The notes under the pieces: generated by a model | The model's database searches: none | What the model was told of the DNA's origin: nothing | The model's input: the letters and a program-made list of their open reading frames with translations, nothing else | Source of the DNA: Gemmataceae bacterium | Lineage (GTDB): Bacteria; Planctomycetota; Planctomycetia; Gemmatales; Gemmataceae | Direction of reading: 5' to 3' | NCBI GenBank assembly: GCA_019748295.1 | Contig: JAIEPT010000066.1 | Span: 1 to 64,000, forward strand | DNA: 64,000 bases | Shown: positions 9,850 to 55,501 of the stretch, piece after piece | Layout of the letters: the number at the start of each line of letters is the position of its first letter | How positions within the stretch are numbered: position 1 is the first letter of the stretch | Translations under genes and position numbers: made by a program

Positions 9850-9860
9850 CGTCTTGCGTC

Positions 9861-10061
9861 TTGCTCCCCTCTCCCCTTTGGGGAGAGGGGCTGGGGGTGA
9901 GGGGAGAGAGCGGTGCATAATCTTGTTTCGCACTGCAAGCCCCAGGGTAAGCGCAGCGCACGCTGGGGATCGCTCCGAGCGCTACTTCGTGCACAACATA
10001 ACGTTGATGCGCCGCTCTCTCCCCTCACCCCTAACCCCTCTCCCCCAAGGGGAGAGGGGAA
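9861..10061. repeat. Inverted repeat pair, family A, with one family-B unit inside
   Basis: Arms at 9861-9912 and 10012-10061 are inverted copies of the family-A unit: 11-bp stem CCCCTCTCCCC / GGGGAGAGGGG around TTT, then GGGGGTGAGGGG. A family-B unit (9936-9973, CCCCAGGGTAAGCGCAGC...) sits between them. The element lies inside the flg operon between flgI and flgJ. Confidence 0.85.
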
Positions 10062-20918: not shown

Positions 20919-20981
20919 GTCCCCGCTCAGCACTGCGCTTTGGGGAGAGCGGCTCTAGTTGAGCGTACAGGCGTAGTCTTT

Positions 20982-21088
20982 GGTGGAGGCAGCGAAGCTT
21001 CCCCTCTCCCTCCGCCGGCGGTTGCAGGCACTTGCAAGGTCGGTATGGGCGGAGGGAGAGGGTGGCCAACGGCCGGGTGAGGGGGGCA
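20982..21088. repeat. Left 107-bp inverted repeat flanking the DUF559 gene
   Basis: This 107-base unit is matched in inverse orientation at 21491-21597 with about six differences by eye. It carries a family-A-like stem (CCCTCTCCCTCCGCC with GGCGGAGGGAGAGGG) and ends in GGGTGAGGGGGGCA, whose purine tract is the Shine-Dalgarno of the next gene. Confidence 0.92.
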
Positions 21089-21092
21089 GACG

Positions 21093-21455
21093 GTGGCCGA
21101 ACCTAAACGCATCAACCAAGCTCGCGCATTGCGGCGGAACGATGTCCCCGCCGAGGATCGCCTTTGGTCGGCGCTCCGGAATCGCGCTCTCGCCGGTTTG
21201 AAGTTTCGCCGCCAACATCCGATTGCGAATTTCATCGTCGATTTCGCATGCGTCGAGTGCAAGCTGATCGTCGAGATAGACGGGCAATCCCATCTCGATC
21301 AGAAACATCGCGACGCAGACCGAACGGCGGCTTTGGAATCCCTGGGATGGAAAGTGCAGCGGATTTGGAACACGGATGTCTATGAAAACTTGAACGGCGT
21401 CAAAGAAATGCTGCTGATAGTCTGCGAGCAACGGCTTCGAGAGCTTCATTTGTAA
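21093..21455 (+). CDS. DUF559 family endonuclease (Vsr/REase-like fold)
   Basis: The 120-residue product has the complete DUF559 pattern: ARALRRNDVPAEDRLWSALRN, then LKFRRQHPIANFIVDFAC, KLIVEIDGQSH and GWKVQRIWNTDVYENL. DUF559 belongs to the PD-(D/E)XK-like superfamily related to very-short-patch-repair nucleases; the D of IVDF and the E of VEIDG are the presumed metal ligands. The start is GTG at 21093, with the G-rich end of the flanking repeat (GAGGGGGG) as ribosome site. The gene sits between two 107-bp inverted repeats with only 4 bases from the left one and 35 to the right one. The biological role of the family is not established. Confidence 0.9.
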   Translation: MAEPKRINQARALRRNDVPAEDRLWSALRNRALAGLKFRRQHPIANFIVDFACVECKLIVEIDGQSHLDQKHRDADRTAALESLGWKVQRIWNTDVYENLNGVKEMLLIVCEQRLRELHL

Positions 21456-21490
21456 GTCTGCCGTGACCCTTGAGCCTTCTGCCTTCGGCT

Positions 21491-21597
21491 TGCCCCCCTC
21501 ACCCGGCCGTTGGCCACCCTCTCCCCCCGCCCATACTGACGTTGCAAGTGTCTGCATCCGCCGGCGGGGGGAGAGGGGAAGCTTCGCTGCCTCCACC
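21491..21597. repeat. Right 107-bp inverted repeat flanking the DUF559 gene
   Basis: Inverse copy of 20982-21088. Where the left copy has CTCCCTCCGCC pairing with GGCGGAGGGAG, this copy has CTCCCCCCGCC pairing with GGCGGGGGGAG. Both partners changed and the stem is preserved. Confidence 0.92.
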
Positions 21598-21695
21598 GAG
21601 AAACACGAAATCTGCAACTGTAAGATTGGGGGCGGGCTGCCGTTCAAGCCATAAACTGATCGCATCCGCCTGCTTCCCTGCTTGAGCGAGCTTCC

Positions 21696-25685: not shown

Positions 25686-25874
25686 CGTTTAGCGGGGAGC
25701 CGTAGGCGACCTTGCTCCCCTCTCCCTCCGGGAGAGGGGCTGGGGGTGAGGGTGTTTTTTTCGGAAACCGCGAGCAATATTAAGCATTGCAAGGGGCGAA
25801 TGTTTTGCCCTCACCCCCAGCCCCTCTCCCGGAGGGAGAGGGGAGCAAGGTCGCCTACGGCTCCCCGCTAAACG
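25686..25874. repeat. Perfect 67-bp inverted repeat, families D plus A joined
   Basis: Arms 25686-25752 and 25808-25874 are identical inverted copies by direct reading, with a 55-base centre that includes a seven-T run. Each arm joins a family-D unit (CGTTTAGCGGGGAGCCGTAG...) to a family-A unit. It fills the gap between two minus-strand genes. Confidence 0.95.
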
Positions 25875-55320: not shown

Positions 55321-55401
55321 TGCGAATCTCCGTGGACCACACGGCAATTATACGGTTTCGGCCGTCGCTCCGCTTGGGCGAGCGGCAGGTGCGAATCTCC
55401 G

Positions 55402-55501
55402 CCCCCTCTCCCTCCGGGAGAGGTTTGGGGTGAGTGAAGTCGCTCGAAACATCGGGCGCATTGGCCCTCACCCCCCAACCCCTCTCCCGGAGGGAGAGGG
55501 G
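55402..55501. repeat. Inverted repeat pair, family A
   Basis: Arms 55402-55434 and 55465-55501 are inverted family-A units (CCCCTCTCCC / GGGAGAGG around TCC). They lie between the Uma2 gene start and the 3' end of the next minus-strand gene. Confidence 0.85.

Follow-up and report, generated by a model that had tools for sequence, protein, structure and literature searches.

A DUF559 nuclease gene between BoxC-like inverted repeats, and the case for its product as the resident enzyme of these repeats

Why should a single small nuclease gene lie between two long inverted copies of a dispersed repeat, and could its product be the enzyme that spreads that repeat? The question was raised by the window studied here, a 64,000-nt stretch of DNA from a Gemmataceae bacterium (positions 1 to 64,000 of contig JAIEPT010000066.1). 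A sequence-only reading of this stretch had described a DUF559 gene between two 107-base inverted copies with about six mismatches, and had proposed a mobile unit resembling REP elements and their RAYT transposases.

The gene, its arms and its protein

Measurement of the inverted arms (20982-21088 and 21491-21597) gave exactly what had been read by eye: 107 nt each, 94% complementary, with six mismatches and a spacer of 402 nt. An ORF of 120 amino acids with a GTG start (21093-21455) lies wholly inside the spacer. Its product belongs to DUF559 (PF04480, E 7e-37), and its domain matches are DUF559 and MTES_1575 only. At its inner end the left arm carries the purine tract AGGGGGG, 6 nt 5' of the GTG, which is plausible as the ribosome site of the gene. 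The features of the unit and its surroundings are as follows.

20966..20981, forward strand: degenerate left outer end (TACAGGCGTAGTCTTT; compare ACAGGTGTAGGTTTCTT of the gene-less units)
20982..21088, forward strand: left 107-nt inverted repeat arm, with 62 related places in the genome
21002..21086, forward strand: BoxC-like triplex motif (TM) of the left arm
21080..21086, forward strand: purine tract AGGGGGG, possible ribosome site as read from the sequence
21093..21455, forward strand: stand-alone DUF559 / YcjD-like nuclease, 120 aa, the sole DUF559 gene of the genome
21491..21597, reverse strand: right 107-nt inverted repeat arm
21493..21577, reverse strand: BoxC-like TM of the right arm, its purine tail facing the gene
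21598..21623, forward strand: degenerate right outer end (GAGAAACACGAAATCTGCAACTGTAA)
9850-10000, 15300, 25700-25800, 37650 and 55400-55450: further BoxC/TM elements in the window

The 107-nt extent held for the arms, not for the outer limits of the repeat. Gene-less copies of the arm extend about 17-20 nt further outward (ACAGGTGTAGGTTTCTT), and degenerate versions of this outer end flank the gene-bearing unit at 20966-20981 and 21598-21623. Both arms contain a pyrimidine arm, a complementary purine arm and a mirror purine third strand (12-nt blocks, with at most two third-strand mismatches). In the left arm the order is pyrimidine arm CCCTCTCCCTCC, loop, purine arm, a GGCC-AAC-GGCC connector hairpin and the mirror purine tail GGGTGAGGGGGG. 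The same intrastrand-triplex layout is known from the BoxC repeats of E. coli, for which the names PIT elements and TM are also in use (Holder et al. 2015, PMC4666352), and the window repeats are, judged by their layout, of the same kind. Triplex formation was published for an E. coli oligonucleotide (PMC4666352), while the TMs of the window are known from sequence alone. The window arms do not fit the strict TMECO consensus (CCCTCNCCCN3-6GGGNGAGGGN3GGGNGAGGG), having a longer loop and a connector of 11-12 nt; shorter TMs elsewhere in the genome are closer to it. A search of Rfam gave no significant match.

As single-stranded DNA, each 107-nt arm is predicted to form a long hairpin (minimum free energy about -30 kcal/mol; z -3.3 and -2.8). 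A compensatory T-A to C-G change had been read in the stem, and it is real. Over the 31 arm copies of the genome, five stem pairs were changed on both sides; such both-sided changes occupied 18 cells against 6.3 in shuffles (0/500), mostly within the small GGCC/GCCC connector hairpin.

The host assembly is a MAG of 6.47 Mb in 399 contigs, 94% complete. The strict TM pattern matched it 399 times and the reversed pattern 0 times, the arm matched at 62 places, and exactly one DUF559 gene was found, that at 21093-21455. Repetition on this scale goes well beyond what chance would give, with at least 19 inverted pairs of the arm in addition to the pair at 20982-21597. Of the 20 pairs, only the last-named encloses a gene; the other 19 are at most 140 bp apart and form units of about 278 and 313 bp. 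Some TMs of the genome are paired as a short-connector and a longer-connector form, a pairing also reported in E. coli. In a second TM subfamily of the genome, type A and type B copies form inverted pairs about 30 bp apart, which is the published rule for E. coli BoxC. The further BoxC/TM elements of the window are probably what the sequence-only reading had called family-A repeats.

The DUF559 protein of the window carries the conserved residues E21, D50, E61, D63, H67 and D74, whose acidic and histidine positions we take to correspond to those of EDxHD nucleases. Invariant positions in 56 sequences were R14, E21, W25, F38, Q41, D50, E61, G64, H67 and D74. The predicted model (pLDDT 91) folds as PD-(D/E)XK, and the gene does not encode an HUH Y1 transposase domain (Y1_Tnp, PF01797). 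PDB entries 3hrl, 3r3p and 1vsr were among its top structural matches; 3hrl was nearest, followed by the homing endonuclease I-Bth0305I (TM-scores 0.66/0.79), with Vsr further down (0.49/0.44). Sequence identity was 42% to the structural match 3hrl and 44.6% to E. coli YcjD. Conserved residues and predicted fold thus both point to an EDxHD / Vsr-like nuclease. The protein also matches DUF559-like domains in very long anti-phage proteins (Hhe, ProA, PDC-S37), which suggests that this nuclease has been reused in defence.

Stand-alone DUF559 genes and their repeats

The distribution of the repeats was investigated at 80 stand-alone DUF559 loci from named genomes of many phyla, picked by protein alone with a two-sequence profile. 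Inverted repeats bracketed 42 of the 80, compared with 6 of 1,798 windows of the same size shifted along the same DNA, which upholds the proposed RAYT/REP-like layout and the partnership between nuclease and repeat. With a formal TM scanner, a TM was found within 300 bp of 66 of 77 loci, from at least 10 phyla (65 of 1,773 shifted windows), and inward-facing TMs on both sides of 30 of 77 (2 of 1,773). The sequence-only reading had named two observations that would speak against it, namely orthologues that regularly lack repeats and unrelated genes flanked just as often. Both were checked, and the outcome favoured the reading. As against the 66 of 77, only 26 of 265 other ORFs of the same loci had a TM within 300 bp; 1 of 265 had TMs facing inward on both sides and 4 of 265 were bracketed by inverted repeats. 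The arms can be long elsewhere too, as at the DUF559 locus of S. meliloti pSymB (114 bp, 96.5%). TM-like repeats also flank the gonococcal gene from which PDB 3hrl derives, on either side of it, though in direct and not inverted orientation.

In a specificity set made up of the own genome and 58 relatives, inverted repeats bracketed the stand-alone DUF559 loci, which were bracketed in 14 of 16 cases and carried a TM in 12 of 16, while long multidomain DUF559 proteins had neither (0/12). RAYT loci of the relatives were bracketed in 14 of 23 cases by a different repeat class, and none of the 23 carried a TM. Planctomycete RAYT genes were seen between inverted repeats of 80-200 bp of the GCCCC / CCAGGG..CCCTGG class. 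Moreover, the repeat type follows the resident DUF559 gene: a TM variant (GAAGGTGGC..GGATGAGGG) flanks the DUF559 genes of two relatives, G053 and G057, and has 134 and 39 copies there, one copy in G009 and none in the other 56 genomes, whereas the common TM form has 0 and 4 copies in G053 and G057. Three genomes, G035, G003 and G031, had 56, 25 and 20 TMs and no detected stand-alone DUF559 gene, which may reflect loss, incompleteness or another source. At the genome level, co-occurrence of DUF559 and TMs was significant among the planctomycete relatives; because TM copy number also correlates with RAYT, this co-occurrence is unspecific and was given little weight, and the local evidence carries the argument.

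The same association is present in E. coli. Its DUF559 gene, ycjD, adjoins sapF and had a match in 5313 of 5426 complete genomes. In MG1655, ycjD lies at 1351407-1351760 and BoxC copy no. 9, one of the 23 published copies of E. coli K-12, at 1351204-1351239, about 170 bp downstream; the 3' end of ycjD runs into another, degenerate TM copy. The position of the published copy no. 9 beside ycjD had gone unremarked. No published link of DUF559 or ycjD to repeats was found in the open-access literature searched, in which the partnership appears undescribed. On the evidence of sequences, the partnership of stand-alone DUF559 nucleases with BoxC/TM repeats is established.

Considering that DUF559 genes sit between or beside BoxC repeats, they provide a first candidate enzyme for the spread of these repeats. 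We give a probability of roughly 60% to the reading in which BoxC/TM repeats have stand-alone DUF559 (the YcjD family, of EDxHD type) as their resident enzyme and are driven to spread by its cuts.

Insertion and turnover of repeat units, and rival explanations

Several units of the own genome end in CT[T/C]ACAGGTGTAGGTTTCTT and sit inside another TM element. Junction duplications of 11-14 bp were found at six gene-less units placed in this way (L295 and L008 denote one place, counted once). The target duplications were exact at three units (CCCCCGGCCCC, CCCCGGCCCCTC and CTCCCGGAGGG), one of them within a TM hairpin loop. When the flanks of four units were joined, minus one copy of the duplication, they matched intact copies at 93-95% over 118-133 bp. 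The position of insertion varied between the connector and the loop of the target TM. From the junction duplications and the rebuilt empty sites, it follows that the gene-less units are insertions: units bounded by window-type arms go into the middle of other TMs and duplicate about 11 bp there. Movement is thus seen in the gene-less units with the same ends, where target duplications and empty sites were both found. The proposal of a self-contained mobile unit that bears the gene gained no such support, since a target duplication was seen at the ends of 0 of 43 gene-bearing units and Xanthomonas keeps the gene at two fixed sites. Likewise, the combination of terminal inverted repeats and target-site duplication that marks MITEs and IS elements was found in the gene-less units, not in the gene-bearing units.

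Terminal inverted repeats with target duplications of about 11 bp are typical of MITEs moved by DDE transposases, so the gene-less units might be ordinary MITEs of an unrelated DDE transposase, with DUF559 a passenger caught between two TMs. The full element could be missing from a 94%-complete MAG whose contigs often terminate inside these repeats. Nevertheless, no transposase with the same ends (CTTACAGGTGTAGGTTTCTTGGTGG) was found in the assembly, where contig breaks leave a gap, and the search for a hidden transposase at unpaired unit ends met only remnants or contig ends; DUF559 is the only gene between the arms. A passenger would explain neither a partnership with sequence-divergent TMs across at least 10 phyla nor the match of repeat type to resident gene. 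We regard this explanation as unlikely, although it is the most probable of the rivals.

The turnover of the gene-bearing unit could be followed in Xanthomonas. At one site compared in 33 species, the DUF559 unit was present in 24 and absent in 9, and 7 of the 9 empty sites were a single hairpin built from the unit's outer arms. The flank tree required seven changes, six of them forced by well-supported branches, which means at least six gains or losses of the unit at this site, in most cases with a bare hairpin as the alternative state. Alleles turn over as well: between G075 and G080 the flanks were 96.8% identical and the DUF559 genes 76.3%, and a flank clade was rejected for the gene (p-AU 0.0017), so that gene and flank histories conflict. 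DUF559 is confined to two fixed sites in the genus, and presence and allele turn over at one of them. The second had been considered as a moving copy and was set aside as a single, nearly fixed locus across the genus, where the gene has one TM on its upstream side but lacks a downstream one. Plasmids of Sinorhizobium and Azospirillum were also set aside as sources of empty sites, their units being conserved there. In Xanthomonas species without any DUF559 the TM counts were 0, 0, 7 and 14, compared with a median near 26 (p 0.0025); phylogenetically independent contrasts gave the same direction, with too few contrasts for significance.

BoxC sites of E. coli are also unstable (PMC4666352). At alx-sstT, a BoxC pair in one strain corresponds to a single hairpin in another, the difference of 75 bp lying between two copies of CCCTCTCCC. 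Among the strains viewed, E. coli BLR included, this region took three forms: the BoxC pair, one hairpin alone, or a version longer by about 217 bp. The alternation in Xanthomonas and E. coli is compatible both with insertion that duplicates an arm-sized segment and with deletion between arms, and it could be plain deletion between direct arms of 9-13 bp.

This instability is also what might be expected if DUF559 were a repair or housekeeping nuclease that trims or resolves triplex and hairpin repeats and so protects replication, the repeats near its gene being regulatory and not spread by it. The Vsr-like fold agrees with such a role. In a Caulobacter methylase mutant, the Vsr-like DUF559 protein VsrA is the cause of DNA breaks and of an SOS response (PMC12907096). 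But a repair function leaves unpredicted the match of repeat variant to resident gene, the lowest repeat numbers in species that lack DUF559, and the inward-facing repeats on both sides of the gene. It seems to us a little less probable still than the MITE explanation.

Could the flanking TMs be mere cis-regulatory parts of the gene, a common intergenic repeat having been co-opted as ribosome site, terminator or attenuator? In the window, 6 nt separate the left TM from the start codon, and many DUF559 loci have the TM tail no more than about 30 nt from the first start codon. At other loci, however, tens of nucleotides intervene, or TMs are confined to the downstream side, as in E. coli ycjD, and other genes in the same loci seldom have TM pairs (1/265); we consider this very improbable. 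That RAYT (Y1/HUH) transposases of the same genome spread these repeats is scarcely credible and RAYT was rejected as their mover, since, despite six Y1_Tnp matches in the own genome and a weak correlation of TM counts with RAYT presence, RAYT loci are bracketed by another repeat class (14/23) and carry no TM (0/23).

A candidate enzyme for BoxC and its place among known systems

Under the preferred reading, with DUF559 as the resident enzyme, the most likely mechanism is that TMs are cleaved and that TM units are inserted or collapsed when the cut is repaired. The nuclease would recognise the TM in its hairpin or triplex form, whether extruded or single-stranded, cutting it with a stagger of about 11 nt. 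Repair of the break would then insert or copy a TM-paired unit there, a cross of homing and transposition. With the hairpin arm repeated in direct orientation, units could also revert to one hairpin. The small gene-less units would do the spreading, and the enzyme itself may be largely domesticated at fixed sites. The idea that one system spread the related repeats is supported by these results; that DUF559 is the enzyme responsible is what we infer.

We propose more tentatively, at somewhat less than even odds, that stand-alone DUF559/YcjD nucleases may represent a new class of mobile-repeat system found across bacteria, in which an EDxHD nuclease recognises triplex or hairpin DNA, its cuts with a stagger of about 11 nt lead repair to insert TM-paired units, sometimes with the gene, into other TMs, and which would be the source of all BoxC/PIT elements, those of E. 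coli included. A nuclease by itself lacks strand-transfer chemistry, and this counts against our best explanation, as do the 0 of 43 target duplications at gene-bearing units and the genomes that have TMs and no detected stand-alone DUF559. In the main study of BoxC, the origin of the repeats was unclear and no mobility activities were found near them (PMC4666352). Joining BoxC repeats, which have no known maker, to the structure-solved DUF559/YcjD family, which has no assigned role, would explain both. It would also be a second, enzymatically unrelated, RAYT-like pairing of a domesticated nuclease with dispersed palindromes.

Among the closest parallels is REP/REPIN and RAYT (TnpA-REP). In both systems a single-copy gene stands between inverted palindromic repeats, many gene-less copies of which are scattered elsewhere; each genome has its own repeat type, and the gene seldom moves. 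The enzyme here, however, is a PD-(D/E)XK/EDxHD nuclease instead of an HUH Y1 transposase, and its repeats belong to a different sequence class, that of Y-R-R triplex motifs. With published BoxC/PIT/TM (PMC4666352) they share the pyrimidine arm, purine arm, mirror third strand and inverted pairs of type A and type B; the window subfamily differs by its longer loop and connector and extra outer arms. Moreover, BoxC has no reported protein partner or mobility function, whereas the repeats of the window are tied to DUF559 and occur in units with target duplications.

The protein resembles the EDxHD homing endonuclease I-Bth0305I and Vsr in its fold and its conserved acidic and histidine residues. 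As to copying of the gene into a cognate empty site, occupied/empty polymorphism and allele turnover were seen at the Xanthomonas site. In contrast to these two, the DUF559 gene lies outside any intron or intein, its proposed target is a dispersed repeat and not a single allele, and no methylase or mismatch context was seen. The short gene-less units, with terminal inverted repeats and target duplications of about 11 bp, are like MITEs and other non-autonomous elements derived from IS; they differ in that no DDE transposase was found, that such ends enclose no gene but that of a nuclease, and that their targets are other TM repeats. Finally, PDB 3hrl (NGO0050 of N. gonorrhoeae) and E. coli YcjD (NF007294), which have no recorded link to repeats, are of the same protein family as the nuclease of the window.
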